Source of the DNA: a virus | Length of the DNA: 50,586 nt | IMG/VR virus record: IMGVR_UViG_3300025785_001206 | Location: 1 to 50,586 of that record | Reading direction: 5' to 3' (one strand) | Part shown: positions 35,002 through 42,926 of the stretch, piece by piece | How positions within the stretch are numbered: the first letter of the stretch is position 1 | How the letters are laid out: every line of letters begins with the position of its first letter | Translations under genes and position numbers: made by a program | The notes under the pieces: generated by a model | Database searches by the model: none | What the model was told of the DNA's origin: nothing | Seen by the model: the letters and a program-made list of their open reading frames with translations, nothing else

Positions 35002-37341
35002 TTAAGAAATTTTTGTTGTAATAAAATCTATCGAAGAAATATTATCCTCTTTTTTTATCATTATAAGATTATCAGACCAGTTACGTATTAAAGGATTATG
35101 TGATATGACAAAAATGTGTTCAAAATAATTTTTAATTTTCTTAAAGAACTCACCAACCAACTCAAGATTTTCATCGGCAACTTTACCAAATACTTCATCC
35201 ATAACCACTATATTAGGTTTAGGTAATGATGAAATTTTTGTTAGTACACTTCTAATCGCTAATGATGCTATTGTTCTTTCATAACCTGATCCTGAATTCA
35301 ATGGTTTAACGATTCTTGATTCAGTATCAATCATTATAAATTCAACTTCATTTTTATCATTGATATTCATCTCTAAAATAAAATAACAACTATCAATCAA
35401 AAGTCTATACAACTCCTCATTCAATAATGGAATCATATTTTTCAAAATAACTTTAGAGATACCATTCTTACCATAGATTGTTAAATAAACTTTGAATACG
35501 TTTGATAACTCTTCTTCAGCTTTAATTTTTTTAATTAAATCCTCATTAGTGGCTATCTTATTGGTCATAAGACTAATGTTACTTCTATGTCGCTCTATAT
35601 TTGTATTGTTTTGTTTTATATCAGCATTAGCTGTTTCAATTTGTGTCCTAATCCTAATAACGTCAGCATCTATCTTTTGATTTTCTTCAAGTTTCTTTTT
35701 ATTATTTTCATAATTATTTAAACGCGTTTGTTTACCATTAATATCTAATTGTTTTTGACCAACCTCTAATTCATATCGCGCTTTTATAAGTTTATTTCTT
35801 TCATATGTTTCATATTCAGATTTCAGATTAATAAAAGCAGTTAAAGCTTTGTTTTTTTCTGTGATGTTTTTATTCAATTCATCTACTTGAGCTTGTAAAT
35901 CTTTAATTTGATTTTTAATAGCTTCAATTTCATCAGAATGGTCAACCTCATCTAAAGACCTATTACAAGTTGGACAAATAGATCCAGTTTCTAATTGAGT
36001 AATTAATTTTTGATTTTTTGAAATATCATTTTGAATAATTCTCAAATCCGATTTCAAATTATTGATTGTTGAATTCAATTCTTGATGTGTATCTTCATCA
36101 TAAAACTCCGATGGTTCCGTAACATTTACATTATCAGCCAAGGCTTGGCTTTTCTTTTGTTCGGTTTTTAAAGTGTCTATCTCTCTTTGTAATAAAGTTG
36201 GATTTGTATTTATTAGATTTTTATCAATGTCGTTGTTTCTTGAACTAAGAATTAAATCTTTTTCGTTTTCTAATCTCTCTAATCTGGCTTCAGCATCAGT
36301 CAATGCTGTAGTTAAAATTTCAATTTGAGTTGTTGAGTTATCAATGCTTTGTGCAAAACTATCATTATCAATTCCAAGTTGAGTAAGGTTATATGTGTTT
36401 GAAACTAATTTCCTATTCCAATCATTGAATATTTCTTTTGCGCGTTCTTCTTTAATTTTGAGACTCTCCAATCCTAAAAATTTAGTTAAGATTTGTCCAC
36501 GAGCAGTTGGTTTAGATTCGATTAATTCTTCTAAATTATAACCAGTAGTTAAAATGGTTGATAAAAAATCTTCTTCAGTACCGATAGCTGATTCAATAAA
36601 AGTTTCAGTTTCTCTTCTTTGTTCACCAGTTAAATTTTCTACTGTACCGTCTTCTTTTATTTTGGAGAATTCTAATTTTGTAGTAACATTATGTTCACCC
36701 AATTTAGTTTTCTTTCTTATAGATTTTCTTTCTATAATATAGTCGTGTCCGTCAATATTAACTTCACCTCTTACTTTAACTTCATCAACATCCGTGAATT
36801 TATTAAAAATTTCAGCGTTTGTTTTTGTTTTAGTAGTGGTATTGAAAAATAAAAACATTAATAAATCAACTGATGAGGTAGATTTACCACCAAAGTTTTT
36901 AGGTGTAGATTCTATTACAGTAATGCCATCAAGACTTGTAAAATCAATAACATTATTATTACCAAATGATAAAAAATTGGAGAATTCAATTTTCTTAATA
37001 AACCATTTATTATATCTAATTTTATTTTCATTTAATTTATCTATTTCTGAATTAACTCGGTTATCTAATCTATCAACCAATTCCCATTTAATATTAATAT
37101 TATTTTCTTTGATGAAGTCCTTCATCAATGTTTTTTGGTATTGACTATCTAAAATATTATCAGTGGCTTCTAACGAATTTAACTTTGTATTCTTGATATT
37201 GGTTAAAACCTTAGTAACTATCTGTACGTTCTTAGCGTTATATTTTTGTTGGAAATATGTCTTAACTCTTCTAATTTTCTCCGAGGTGAAGTTCTCCGGC
37301 ACATCTTCCCAAGTCACTTTTATCGATGGATTTTTTGACAT
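35002..37341 (-). CDS. sbcC: SbcC/Rad50-like recombination nuclease subunit (T4 gp46-type)
   Basis: 779 residues. The ATPase N-half includes IEFSNFLSFGNNNVIDFTSL and a Walker A region STPKNFGGKSTSS, with a Q-loop region LSTILTTGYNLEELIESKPT. Two coiled-coil arms flank a zinc hook CPTC (within GSICPTCNRSLDEVD). The C-half has the ABC signature GSGYERTIASLAIRS and Walker B NIVVMDEVFGKVADEN, ending with the H-loop FVISHN. It should pair with the SbcD subunit at 39846 to process DNA ends during recombination-dependent replication. Compared with T4 gp46 it carries about 115 extra N-terminal residues before the ATPase domain. Its start overlaps the methyltransferase gene by 71 nt. Confidence 0.92.
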   Translation of the reverse strand: MSKNPSIKVTWEDVPENFTSEKIRRVKTYFQQKYNAKNVQIVTKVLTNIKNTKLNSLEATDNILDSQYQKTLMKDFIKENNINIKWELVDRLDNRVNSEIDKLNENKIRYNKWFIKKIEFSNFLSFGNNNVIDFTSLDGITVIESTPKNFGGKSTSSVDLLMFLFFNTTTKTKTNAEIFNKFTDVDEVKVRGEVNIDGHDYIIERKSIRKKTKLGEHNVTTKLEFSKIKEDGTVENLTGEQRRETETFIESAIGTEEDFLSTILTTGYNLEELIESKPTARGQILTKFLGLESLKIKEERAKEIFNDWNRKLVSNTYNLTQLGIDNDSFAQSIDNSTTQIEILTTALTDAEARLERLENEKDLILSSRNNDIDKNLINTNPTLLQREIDTLKTEQKKSQALADNVNVTEPSEFYDEDTHQELNSTINNLKSDLRIIQNDISKNQKLITQLETGSICPTCNRSLDEVDHSDEIEAIKNQIKDLQAQVDELNKNITEKNKALTAFINLKSEYETYERNKLIKARYELEVGQKQLDINGKQTRLNNYENNKKKLEENQKIDADVIRIRTQIETANADIKQNNTNIERHRSNISLMTNKIATNEDLIKKIKAEEELSNVFKVYLTIYGKNGISKVILKNMIPLLNEELYRLLIDSCYFILEMNINDKNEVEFIMIDTESRIVKPLNSGSGYERTIASLAIRSVLTKISSLPKPNIVVMDEVFGKVADENLELVGEFFKKIKNYFEHIFVISHNPLIRNWSDNLIMIKKEDNISSIDFITTKIS

Positions 37342-38206
37342 TTTTTTCTTTTTTTTGTTTTCTTTTATTTTTTTCAGCTTCTCTTTCAGCTCTTTCTTTT
37401 TCTTTCTCTTGTTTTAGTCTACGTTTGTTTTCTTCAATTTCAGACTTTGTTTCTTCCAACTGAATTCTATGATTAAAGTATTCAATTTGCTGTAAAGATA
37501 GTTCAGATCCAATATATTTCAAATTTCTATTTATACAAGATAAGGCCGTTGTACCTGTTCCCATAAATGGGTCATAGACAACTGAATTGTCTTTTGCGTA
37601 AATACCCAAAAGTTTATCACATAATTCAGTAGAATAAGTGGCTTTATTGTATGGATTACTACCATCATTGTTTTTTGCAACTATAAAGTTATCGATTATT
37701 TCATAATAATTCTGACCAGTTGATGATACCGATGCGACATCTTTATTAGCTTCGAATGTTAAAATTTCGTCTTTCCTACAAATTACATAAATAAATTCAA
37801 ATATTCTGTTAAGTCTATTATAAGATGCAGGATGAGGTATTGCGTGATTTTTTTTCCAAATAATTGTATCAGCAATAGTGAACGGAGTATTCTTCAAAAT
37901 TTCACAAACAATTGAATAGGGTAGGGCAGGATTTTCAATAGAATAAGAAAAATTATATAAAATAACCCCATTACTTTTCAATATTTCATCGAATGAATTA
38001 AAAACGTCTACAGTCCAATTAAGATAGGTTTCTTCATCTTGCCAATCGTTATAGGAATCGTATCTAGGTTGTTTATCAGCATAACCACCTTTCCTTTTAG
38101 TCATATTGTAAGGTGGAGATGTTAAAACAATATCAATAGATTTTTTATCTATTTTAGTTTTCATAGTCACCAAACAATCCTCATTATGTATTATGTTAAT
38201 ATCCAT
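37271..38206 (-). CDS. DNA methyltransferase (N6-adenine or N4-cytosine, beta-type), R-M partner
   Basis: The catalytic motif IV TSPPYN is at residues 29-34, and the AdoMet-binding motif I DPFMGTGTT is at 212-220, the order expected for beta-class amino-methyltransferases. Recognition residues probably lie between. After residue 250 comes an unusual 60-residue Lys/Glu-rich helical tail (EENKRRLKQEKEKERAEREA and on) ending RCAGELHLGEN, which overlaps the start of sbcC in another frame. The gene starts at the stop codon of the HNH endonuclease gene (TAATG). It probably protects phage DNA from its partner endonuclease and possibly from host restriction. Confidence 0.88.
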   Translation of the reverse strand: MDINIIHNEDCLVTMKTKIDKKSIDIVLTSPPYNMTKRKGGYADKQPRYDSYNDWQDEETYLNWTVDVFNSFDEILKSNGVILYNFSYSIENPALPYSIVCEILKNTPFTIADTIIWKKNHAIPHPASYNRLNRIFEFIYVICRKDEILTFEANKDVASVSSTGQNYYEIIDNFIVAKNNDGSNPYNKATYSTELCDKLLGIYAKDNSVVYDPFMGTGTTALSCINRNLKYIGSELSLQQIEYFNHRIQLEETKSEIEENKRRLKQEKEKERAEREAEKNKRKQKKEKNVKKSIDKSDLGRCAGELHLGEN

Positions 38207-39159
38207 TAATTCTGATTTAATATTAGTCTTGATTTAAAATCAAGTAAGTCAAACCAATAACATCCAACACATCCTATAGCATCATTATATTCAAGATTTC
38301 CACTTGTTAAAGATATACCATATCCTAAAAAAGATGCATCGTATCTTATACAATTTTCTTTACATCTTTTACAAGAATTTCTTTTAATTTTATTACATTT
38401 ATTACATAACGGTTGAAAATCTGATAAATTTTGAGTTATTGAGTTTAAAACTTCTTTGTCATCATATCTACCGTTTTTGTGATCGACCTCAATTTTAGTT
38501 CTTGTATTGCAATGTGCACATCTTTGTTTTGAAATTATTTTTTTTATATCATCACGTATATATCTATTTTTATGTTCATAATCAAAATTGAAACCATTGA
38601 ATTTATACGCAATTGTTAAACCATTCTCTCCGAGCCAAGTTTCAATTTTAAAAATAGCTTCAGCATCTCTTTTCCAACCTACTCCGTTATTCGGTTTCAA
38701 TTTATCATCTTTAGCATCAAAAATATCAAAAAAAGTTTTCTCAGAAAAACCAAATTCATCAACGGGTGAATATTTTAGGATTCTTGCAATTTTACTTTTA
38801 GGCTTAAGTTTTCTTAATTTTTCTCTGAAATAAAATAATAATTCTTGCTCTTCTTCCTTGATTTCTTTTGCAACTTCTAAAACTATTTTTTCATCACATT
38901 TATATTTTGTTTTTAAATCCTCAATTACTTTCCTCCATTCTGTGGCAGAATTTTCGGTAGTTTTAAAAAAAAATTTATGTTTTTGTGATGAAATTTTTAA
39001 ATCTATCTGAATCGCATTTCTTCTTTCTTCAATCGAAGAAGGTATGACTGGTTCAAATAATTTAGAATCGCTGAAATAAAAATCTTTTACTACCTGATAT
39101 AATAAATCATTAGTGTTGTTATAATAAAATATTTTTTTACCTATCCTATAAGATCTCAT
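38206..39159 (-). CDS. HNH endonuclease, probable type II restriction enzyme
   Basis: 317 residues. The C-terminal third holds a zinc-stabilised HNH (beta-beta-alpha-metal) nuclease: CAHC (214-217), IEVDHKNGRYDD with the catalytic DH at 226-227, and FQPLCNKCNKIKR (249-260), then a second cysteine cluster SCKRCKENC and CVGC. The spacing and the DHKN-x-x-Y-x-D-x-x-VLN...DFQ-LC-CN pattern are what I recall from HNH type II restriction enzymes rather than homing endonucleases. The N-terminal 200 residues are unique and may recognise DNA. It is coupled by TAATG overlaps to both the upstream membrane gene and the downstream methyltransferase, making a likely complete R-M pair. Confidence 0.75.
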   Translation of the reverse strand: MRSYRIGKKIFYYNNTNDLLYQVVKDFYFSDSKLFEPVIPSSIEERRNAIQIDLKISSQKHKFFFKTTENSATEWRKVIEDLKTKYKCDEKIVLEVAKEIKEEEQELLFYFREKLRKLKPKSKIARILKYSPVDEFGFSEKTFFDIFDAKDDKLKPNNGVGWKRDAEAIFKIETWLGENGLTIAYKFNGFNFDYEHKNRYIRDDIKKIISKQRCAHCNTRTKIEVDHKNGRYDDKEVLNSITQNLSDFQPLCNKCNKIKRNSCKRCKENCIRYDASFLGYGISLTSGNLEYNDAIGCVGCYWFDLLDFKSRLILNQN

Positions 39160-39470
39160 TATTTTATTCTATTTTCTTCAAAAAATTCAACAATCGAATT
39201 GATTGCCCAAACAACACCTGCAGTAAACATACCGTCAGAAAATATACCAATGTATTTATTAACACCAAATATAGGTGCAACTAAACCTCCGAAAAGAATC
39301 GACATAAAAAATCCTACCCAAGTTGGTGTACACAACATACAACTAATTAAATCACCAAAAAATTTTGATTTTGTTTTAATCCAAGCTCTTTGATTTTCGA
39401 AGATTGATCCATAAACAATTATGGTTGACATTCCGTATGCAACGAATGCCCACAAGACAAGATATATCAT
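39159..39470 (-). CDS. Small integral membrane protein (103 aa)
   Basis: Three hydrophobic segments: MIYLVLWAFVAYGMSTIIVY (1-20), WVGFFMSILFGGLVAPIFG (about 51-69) and GMFTAGVVWAINSIVEFF (about 80-98). A Cys-X-X-Cys pair precedes the second (CMLCTPTWVGFF). The pattern resembles the DUF1360-type small membrane proteins with a C-x2-C-x4-G motif, but that is only a resemblance. Its stop overlaps the start of the HNH endonuclease gene (TAATG). It may be unrelated to restriction and simply belong to the operon. Confidence 0.7.
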   Translation of the reverse strand: MIYLVLWAFVAYGMSTIIVYGSIFENQRAWIKTKSKFFGDLISCMLCTPTWVGFFMSILFGGLVAPIFGVNKYIGIFSDGMFTAGVVWAINSIVEFFEENRIK

Positions 39471-39499: not shown

Positions 39500-39880
39500 T
39501 TATTCGTCATACAAAGAACTGAGGTTACTATTTTTCATAAACGTACCTTTTTTTTGTGCATCAAAGGCGGTAAGGATTTTATCCATATCTTCTTTTAACT
39601 TATCATATTCCTCCTTAAGTTTGAGATATTCTGTATTATCTGTATTGTTGATAATTACTTCTTTGATAATCTCAACAGGTATTTCTTTTATCACTTCCTT
39701 TTCGACTATAACTTCATTAGTTTTACCTGAAGCAAATGACGGGGATTCACCATATTTTAGATACGCAAAGCCTCTGTTAAATGTTTCCTTAGCTAATTTA
39801 TCAATGTCAGTGATATTATTCAATTCACAATACAAAGAGAATTCATCATCCAAGATTAAGGTGTATTTCTTTTTCATCAA
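39500..39880 (-). CDS. Hypothetical coiled-coil protein (126 aa)
   Basis: The N-terminal half (YTLILDDEFSLYCELNNITD, KLAKETFNRGFAYLKYGESP) looks like a small ribbon-helix segment, followed by a valine/isoleucine repeat (VIVEKEVIKEIPVEIIKEVI) and a charged coiled coil (YLKLKEEYDKLKEDMDKILT). The start may be Met1 or Met2. It overlaps the end of sbcD by 35 nt. It could be a regulator or an accessory protein of the nuclease, with no direct evidence. Confidence 0.65.
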   Translation of the reverse strand: MMKKKYTLILDDEFSLYCELNNITDIDKLAKETFNRGFAYLKYGESPSFASGKTNEVIVEKEVIKEIPVEIIKEVIINNTDNTEYLKLKEEYDKLKEDMDKILTAFDAQKKGTFMKNSNLSSLYDE

Positions 39881-40652
39881 TAATATCGTTAATATCTTTT
39901 ATCGAGAAATGTAAAAATGGTTCATCATTTTCTAAATCTCTAAATGTGTAATTATTTTCTACCACGTCGAAAATACCATAACCGTGATGATTCAATGTCT
40001 CACCGAAGTTTTGTTGTATGAGTGAACCTATCATAATACCTTTACCCCCACTTGGTAAAGTAAATGTTTGTCTTTTATGAATATCACCGCACAATAATAA
40101 ATCTAAATCGACAAAATTTAATTGATCATACGCATCTTCGAATTGGAATCCCATATCGGTTGATAACCCTTGAATAGGACCGTGAAACAAACCTACCGTT
40201 AATTTAGTCTCATTCTTTTTGAATTCAGGTCGTGCGTTATGTTGATATAAAGAATAAACAATCCATTGAATGTTATCGTCTACATATTCACCACTATCTT
40301 TATAATATTGTATGTTATCGTTATTCAATAGTTCTGTTATAGGACTGATACTATCTAATCTCTGTGTATTGTTTTCTAAAAAATCGTGATTACCAGGTAT
40401 GATAACTACCTTACCAATATTTTTCACCAACTCATTTATAAACCAAGAAGTTAACATCAACTGTTCATTAGATATGTTAATTTTTTGGTGAGCTATATCT
40501 CCTGCAATTACAACTCTAATGTCCTCATAATTGAAATCTTGAGTTTCTTCCTTCAATTCAAGGATTAATTTTTCGAACTGCTTTTTGTATAAATCGTGCA
40601 TTTGAATTGTACGAATATGTAAATCAGCAATATGTATTATTTTTTTTACCAT
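39846..40652 (-). CDS. sbcD: SbcD/Mre11-like nuclease subunit (T4 gp47-type)
   Basis: 268 residues, a calcineurin-type metallophosphoesterase with the phosphoesterase motifs in order: IADLHIR, VVIAGDIAHQ, VVIIPGNHDFLEN, LFHGPIQG and LLCGDIHKRQTF. All the expected Asp/His/Asn metal ligands are present. It lacks most of the C-terminal capping region of T4 gp47 and is therefore compact. With SbcC (35002) it forms the end-processing nuclease used for phage recombination and replication. Unlike the usual arrangement, the two subunit genes are separated by four genes including the R-M pair. It overlaps the PD-(D/E)XK gene upstream by 7 nt. Confidence 0.9.
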   Translation of the reverse strand: MVKKIIHIADLHIRTIQMHDLYKKQFEKLILELKEETQDFNYEDIRVVIAGDIAHQKINISNEQLMLTSWFINELVKNIGKVVIIPGNHDFLENNTQRLDSISPITELLNNDNIQYYKDSGEYVDDNIQWIVYSLYQHNARPEFKKNETKLTVGLFHGPIQGLSTDMGFQFEDAYDQLNFVDLDLLLCGDIHKRQTFTLPSGGKGIMIGSLIQQNFGETLNHHGYGIFDVVENNYTFRDLENDEPFLHFSIKDINDIIDEKEIHLNLG

Positions 40653-42902: not shown

Positions 42903-42926
42903 TCCCTCGGACACCACTCCGAGGGA
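42903..42926 (-). terminator. Rho-independent terminator
   Basis: 8-bp stem (42903-42910 with 42919-42926; CCCTCGG/CCGAGGG core) with an 8-nt loop followed on the minus strand by a run of nine T. It ends the RuvC-like gene at 43003. The stem is GC-rich compared with the surroundings. Confidence 0.9.

Follow-up and report, generated by a model that had tools for sequence, protein, structure and literature searches.

What are an HNH endonuclease gene and a DNA methyltransferase gene doing between the two subunits of a phage recombination nuclease? This question is raised by the window analysed here, the complete IMG/VR record IMGVR_UViG_3300025785_001206 (50,586 bases; listed as linear, perhaps fragmentary), which is derived from an uncultured virus of bacteria. 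A first-pass annotation had read the two genes as a type II restriction-modification (R-M) pair inserted as a cassette next to sbcC. Our results make it probable that they are such a pair and that it occupies a cassette slot by sbcC, at which a group of phages has repeatedly exchanged R-M modules.

Identity of the two genes

The HNH endonuclease gene (38206..39159, minus strand) encodes 317 amino acids and belongs to the ICEA (IceA1/NlaIII-type) family. Its match to Pfam PF05315 (E 1.6e-26) covers model positions 3-199 of 218 and reaches 93.6 bits at a curated cut-off of 24, and the ICEA score in the genome search was 95.7 bits. The protein thus aligns with a family other than the homing or intron endonucleases. 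In an alignment with 16 relatives the conserved core spans approximately residues 124-310, and D226, H227, N256, K259, R260, C263, C266, C297 and C300 are invariant in all 17 members, with the catalytic and metal-site residues all intact. The DH at 226-227 had been named as catalytic, in agreement with this conservation. The CAHC at 214-217, which had been singled out as well, does not represent a conserved zinc pair, as C217 is not conserved; the invariant cysteines are the pairs C263/C266 and C297/C300.

An additional N-terminal region of about 120 amino acids is missing from most relatives and is mostly helical in the AlphaFold2 model (mean pLDDT 78). The C-terminal domain of this model is weakly HNH-like and the middle region gave weak winged-helix-like matches. 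VIA-align returned HNH-type matches to Cas5-HNH, Cap5 and EcoKMcrA, whose Z-scores of 4.8-5.8 are middling and carry little weight. Foldseek gave no significant match with the model, and a sequence search against solved structures gave chance matches only. The single protein as a query found no close relatives in IMG/VR and the phage collection; relatives surfaced only through alignment-based searches, or beside relatives of the methyltransferase, and were also detected by a local hidden Markov model. ICEA members were absent from 14 control genomes. A homing-endonuclease identity was considered and rejected, the best PHROG matches having E values of at least 0.086 and a methyltransferase adjoining nearly all relatives of the protein.

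The neighbouring gene (37271..38206, minus strand) encodes a beta-class N4-cytosine/N6-adenine DNA methyltransferase of 311 amino acids (PF01555, E 1.7e-32; PADLOC MTase_II, 8e-32). The assignment to the beta class follows from the motif order in METHYLTRANSFERASE, where motif IV (TSPPY, residues 29-33) precedes motif I (DPFMGTG, 212-218). The extended motifs TSPPYN and DPFMGTGTT, both pointed out previously, are present and conserved in the aligned relatives. SPPY is usually associated with N4-cytosine methylation, and N6-adenine is also possible. Relatives of the enzyme in phages are 55-66% identical. A related case is Fusobacterium phage phiKSUM (L089:3965-6942), which has four consecutive methyltransferase genes, the first of them 50% identical to the methyltransferase of the window.

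The two genes meet at TTAATGG, where the TAA stop overlaps the ATG start (TAATG coupling), and the methyltransferase gene overlaps sbcC by 71 nt; coordinates, strands, junction and overlap all agree with the earlier description. The odd Lys/Glu tail of 60 residues is also real. It has no counterpart in any of the six aligned relatives, which stop near residue 249, and is encoded by an A-rich run ahead of the sbcC start and, for the last 23 residues, by the 5' end of sbcC in another frame. This is what one would expect if a stop codon had been lost at the end of the cassette.

Pairing and maintenance in relatives

Ten bacterial relatives of the ICEA nuclease were found in a scan of a genome collection, and six of them directly adjoin a beta-class methyltransferase. 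Three others lie beside a D12 methyltransferase, a C5 methyltransferase and another HNH gene, respectively, and the last is located on a short contig from which a methyltransferase is absent. On a Priestia megaterium megaplasmid (L091:2152-5453), an ICEA relative lies 1.4 kb from a C5-type methyltransferase, and neither of the two is listed in the gene table.

A wider scan detected ICEA-type nucleases in 30 loci of viral contigs. Among the 27 newly inspected viral loci, which include repeat fetches and near-copies and therefore represent fewer independent cases, a recognisable methyltransferase is adjacent in 24 and an open reading frame (ORF) with an NPPF motif in three. One kind of these NPPF ORFs has a weak, sub-threshold match to the Eco57I methylase. 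In addition to the window, eight phage loci combine an ICEA nuclease with a methyltransferase of this SPPY family, and both gene orders occur. The two findings named beforehand as refuting an R-M pair, an alignment with homing or intron endonucleases only and an HNH protein lacking a methyltransferase in all related phages, thus did not arise. Since the nuclease belongs to the ICEA family and methyltransferases of several classes neighbour its relatives in bacteria and viruses, the two genes of the window very probably form a phage-borne type II R-M pair, as had been proposed.

Both genes of the sister cassettes appear to be maintained in a functional state. For eight pairs of nuclease genes, the ratio of non-synonymous to synonymous substitution rates (dN/dS, pairwise Nei-Gojobori method) ranged from 0.04 to 0.50 and was mostly below 0.2, and the partner methyltransferases gave values of 0.01-0.22; these figures are rough, as synonymous sites are nearly saturated in several pairs.

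A cassette slot beside sbcC

The pair is bordered upstream by a gene for a DUF1360-like membrane protein (39159..39470, minus strand; Pfam 3.5e-4, slightly short of the cut-off) and downstream by an intact sbcC-like gene (T4 gp46-like; 35002..37341, minus strand; PHROG 77, E 5.2e-52; full-length relatives exist). We surveyed this interval with the sbcD-like gene (T4 gp47-like; 39846..40652, minus strand; PHROG 100, E 1e-23) as anchor in 80 relatives, IMG/VR holding at least 400 relatives of sbcD. Grouping of sbcD at 95% nucleotide identity resulted in 39 lineages, the window included. The DUF1360-like gene is kept beside the slot, and its distance to sbcC varies from approximately 10 bp to 3.8 kb, with empty slots measuring 11-47 bp. 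A cassette of nuclease and methyltransferase is present in 15 of the 39 lineages, either in the slot or, in L009 and L029, directly before the DUF1360-like gene; six lineages are empty and the remainder contain mostly one gene. In these related, uncultivated phages, some of which are represented by contigs of more than 300 kb, the interval from the DUF1360-like gene to sbcC is therefore a cassette site. The idea of an inserted cassette is borne out by the relatives with an empty slot and by those with unrelated R-M cassettes.

About 11 kinds of cassettes occur at the slot, and the ICEA nuclease is that of the window. The nuclease of the L012-group cassette belongs to the EcoRI family (profile match 6.4e-7), those of L034 (4e-9), L017 (1.3e-23) and L031 (7.5e-11) match the REase_II model, and the one of L077 has a weak profile match (0.0012). 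From their position beside a methyltransferase, the upstream genes of L015, L021 and L009 and the 201- and 266-amino-acid genes of L030 and L040 presumably encode nucleases, too. The methyltransferases are of the D12, N6_N4 or Eco57I type, except that of L077, which Pfam does not recognise. L030 possesses two cassettes in tandem. A solitary protein of about 170-240 amino acids is found in the slot or before the DUF1360-like gene at L035:10696-11271 and 32 other loci. This protein may be a nuclease that lacks a methyltransferase partner, judging from weak fold matches with PD-(D/E)XK enzymes and from invariant residues (D, E-x-E, K).

An exchange can be seen in L013 and L015. Their flanks share 88% identity up to the stop codon of the DUF1360-like gene and 94% identity onwards from the start of sbcC, and the DNA between these exact borders is unrelated: L013 carries an EcoRI-like cassette and L015 a different one. 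L010 has similar flanks and a solitary HNH gene in the slot. When slot content was mapped onto an sbcD tree of 40 representatives, 21 changes were needed compared to a mean of 22.1 after shuffling, which indicates that slot content barely tracks descent at this depth.

A distant lineage, whose sbcC is only about 46% identical, carries R-M cassettes directly after sbcC, and these include relatives of the slot cassettes of the window's group. One of them (L283:5068-6746) consists of a full-length true EcoRI (E 5e-131) and the EcoRI methylase (M.EcoRI, 6e-118), located immediately after sbcC. Single proteins of 813-818 amino acids take the same position in L266 (7367-9823), L278 and L272; that of L266 matches the Eco57I methylase and has about 350 residues ahead of the match, and these proteins are possibly fused restriction-methyltransferase enzymes. 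L277 and L270 share 10.6 kb of flanking sequence at 99% identity, and what sets them apart is a 1.6-kb insertion of nuclease and methyltransferase, at the ends of which no long direct repeats were found. Literature searches, the coverage of which is incomplete, turned up no description of such a precise and repeatedly refilled R-M exchange slot beside sbcC.

Gene order and transcription

Read along the minus strand, the sbcD-like gene comes first, followed by the coiled-coil gene (39500..39880), the DUF1360-like gene, the HNH gene, the methyltransferase gene and the sbcC-like gene. The second cassette position, used in L009 and L029, lies directly after the coiled-coil gene. The pair thus lies between sbcD and sbcC as had been noticed, but it does not separate direct neighbours, since the coiled-coil gene and the DUF1360-like gene normally intervene. 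The junction of the DUF1360-like gene and the HNH gene is likewise TAATG, with overlapping stop and start codons. A pattern scan of the minus strand detected no terminator-like site from approximately 42,900 down to the sbcC end, and the region from sbcD to sbcC is therefore likely to be on one transcript. A strong terminator-like hairpin (TCCCTCGGAGTGGTGTCCGAGGGA plus a T run) is located at 42903-42926 (minus strand), within the 5' end of a listed primase-like ORF. The real start of this ORF probably lies downstream of the listed one, and the recombination operon may begin at the hairpin.

A Shine-Dalgarno sequence is absent from 25 of the 26 genes of the window, which is compatible with a host from the Bacteroidota; promoter motifs of the Bacteroidota type showed no enrichment within the window.

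CATG as candidate target

CATG is the site of IceA1 and NlaIII, and it is the most depleted tetranucleotide of the window, with six occurrences (4543, 8281, 17767, 22175, 32266 and 34742) compared to 170 expected, a 28-fold depletion. GTAC is enriched 1.67-fold. In clade relatives, the observed/expected ratio of CATG has a mean of 0.51 (z -4.0). Where phages carry ICEA pairs of the DPPY type or of other kinds, the ratio ranges from 0.06 to 1.08, and most of those with the DPPY type are not depleted. CATG can be named as a first candidate target of the pair, for which the depletion is suggestive only. In the distant lineage (L244-L285), GATC is almost absent (81 compared to 1375 expected, pooled with near-copies included).

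Function of the pair and alternative explanations

As far as sequences allow a judgement, the gene identities, the conserved catalytic residues, the pairing, the slot and the swaps argue for an R-M function. Several points have to be set against this. Even its closest relatives share only about 40% identity with the HNH protein, and the exact pair of the window was found at the slot in the window only. CATG is also depleted in L084 (0/41) and L042 (3/23), which have no ICEA gene on their contigs, and the link to the SbcCD-like nuclease is drawn from gene position. Moreover, the methyltransferase occurs without an ICEA or HNH partner in approximately 45 of its phage relatives and is therefore of value alone.

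The last point leads to the alternative that survives best, although we consider it unlikely: the methyltransferase might serve counter-defence only, shielding the phage DNA from a host restriction system that shares its specificity, with the HNH protein as a weak or inactive hitch-hiker. Most phage relatives of the methyltransferase are indeed solitary, and the mean CATG ratio of 0.51 in the clade, which is found even without the pair, looks as though hosts restrict CATG. However, the HNH protein has kept its catalytic and metal-site residues, which are invariant, purifying selection acts on the nuclease genes in the sister cassettes, and viral ICEA nucleases retain an adjacent methyltransferase.

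It is rather improbable that the pair is kept for retention alone. R-M pairs are known to behave as selfish modules, and if recombination in a mixed infection removed the pair, the progeny would be exposed to cleavage, so that the cassette would select for itself with no other benefit. Gain, loss and replacement are frequent at the slot, as a selfish module might lead one to expect, but the empty slots and the frequent replacement speak against a tight addiction, and the segregation typical of plasmids does not apply to a lytic genome. Finally, phage HNH nucleases are often homing enzymes and relatives exchange the slot content with precise borders, but a homing-type cassette, whose HNH protein would cut the empty slot of rival phages and copy itself with the methyltransferase as passenger or guard, is very improbable, since ICEA is an R-M family, matches to phage HNH families are weak and sub-threshold, the nucleases in the slot come from many unrelated families and have separate methyltransferases, the same pair is located elsewhere in other phages, and no intron was seen.

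If the pair acts as an R-M system, the progeny DNA would most likely be methylated before packaging, and an injected genome would already be protected. The restriction enzyme could then cut unmodified DNA in the infected cell, namely the host chromosome and the DNA of any co-infecting phage that bears another cassette, and the resulting ends would be degraded by the SbcCD-like exonuclease expressed alongside. The position beside the SbcCD-like genes may thus provide joint timing and end processing. An exchange of the cassette would alter the specificity and with it which phages are compatible. The role of the pair may accordingly be the attack on host DNA, the exclusion of rivals, or both. It is possible, if somewhat on the doubtful side, that this group of large phages keeps the sbcC-side locus for interchangeable R-M modules as a lineage-wide code of self and non-self, in which the enzyme would start the destruction of unmodified host or rival DNA, the co-transcribed SbcCD-like complex would finish it, and swaps would reset the compatibility of sister phages.

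Comparison with known systems

The closest comparison is with the R-M systems of IceA1/HpyI from H. pylori and of NlaIII, in which a nuclease of the same Pfam ICEA HNH family lies next to a DNA methyltransferase; in H. pylori, iceA1 functions as an isoschizomer of NlaIII (PMC2816704). The pair of the window differs in being phage-borne, in its extra N-terminal region and in its beta-class TSPPYN methyltransferase. Adjacent genes for a restriction enzyme and a methyltransferase are also encoded by chloroviruses (CviAI, GATC, and CviAII, CATG, in PBCV-1), whose packaged restriction enzymes are considered responsible for the early breakdown of host DNA (PMC7019647, PMC7248222). However, these are eukaryotic viruses with algal hosts, and no exchange slot by a recombination nuclease has been reported for them. 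The GATC R-M pair of a marseillevirus, which is a eukaryotic giant virus, resembles the window pair in being able to cut related viruses without it; it can cut the DNA of rival viruses, and host DNA was reported not to be degraded (PMC7253447).

In T4-type phages, the endonucleases II and IV cut unmodified DNA and the phage's own DNA is guarded by base modification (PMC2993671). These nucleases cut only unmodified DNA, as that of the window would, and gp46-gp47 is the related recombination nuclease. T4 relies on glucosylated hydroxymethylcytosine, however, in contrast to the sequence-specific methylation and changeable cassettes proposed here, and the cassette may substitute such methylation for the T4-type discrimination by modification.

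A complete R-M pair in a phage had been regarded as unusual in the first-pass annotation, which holds to a lesser degree than thought, since complete pairs are already annotated in the T4-like cyanophages S-CAM3, S-H9-2 and S-RIM32. These also consist of overlapping restriction-enzyme and methylase genes, and that of S-CAM3 lies within the replication region. They differ in their small nuclease, which is annotated as a type II restriction enzyme and was not recovered by the ICEA search, and in their location between regA and the DNA polymerase gene or beside psbA, and not at sbcC. R-M pairs in viruses and T4-like phages were therefore known before, and the precise, refilled R-M slot beside sbcC appears to be the new part.

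Implications for phage biology

R-M systems have been studied mostly as bacterial defence. The slot is a source of new restriction enzymes, because a number of the nucleases in the cassettes have no match among known families. Near-identical phages with a different cassette or none represent natural experiments on the purpose of viral R-M, a question argued mainly for algal and amoebal viruses so far. The repeated trading of R-M modules at one precise site of a core operon suggests that restriction is a routine weapon of these phages or a mark of self-recognition.

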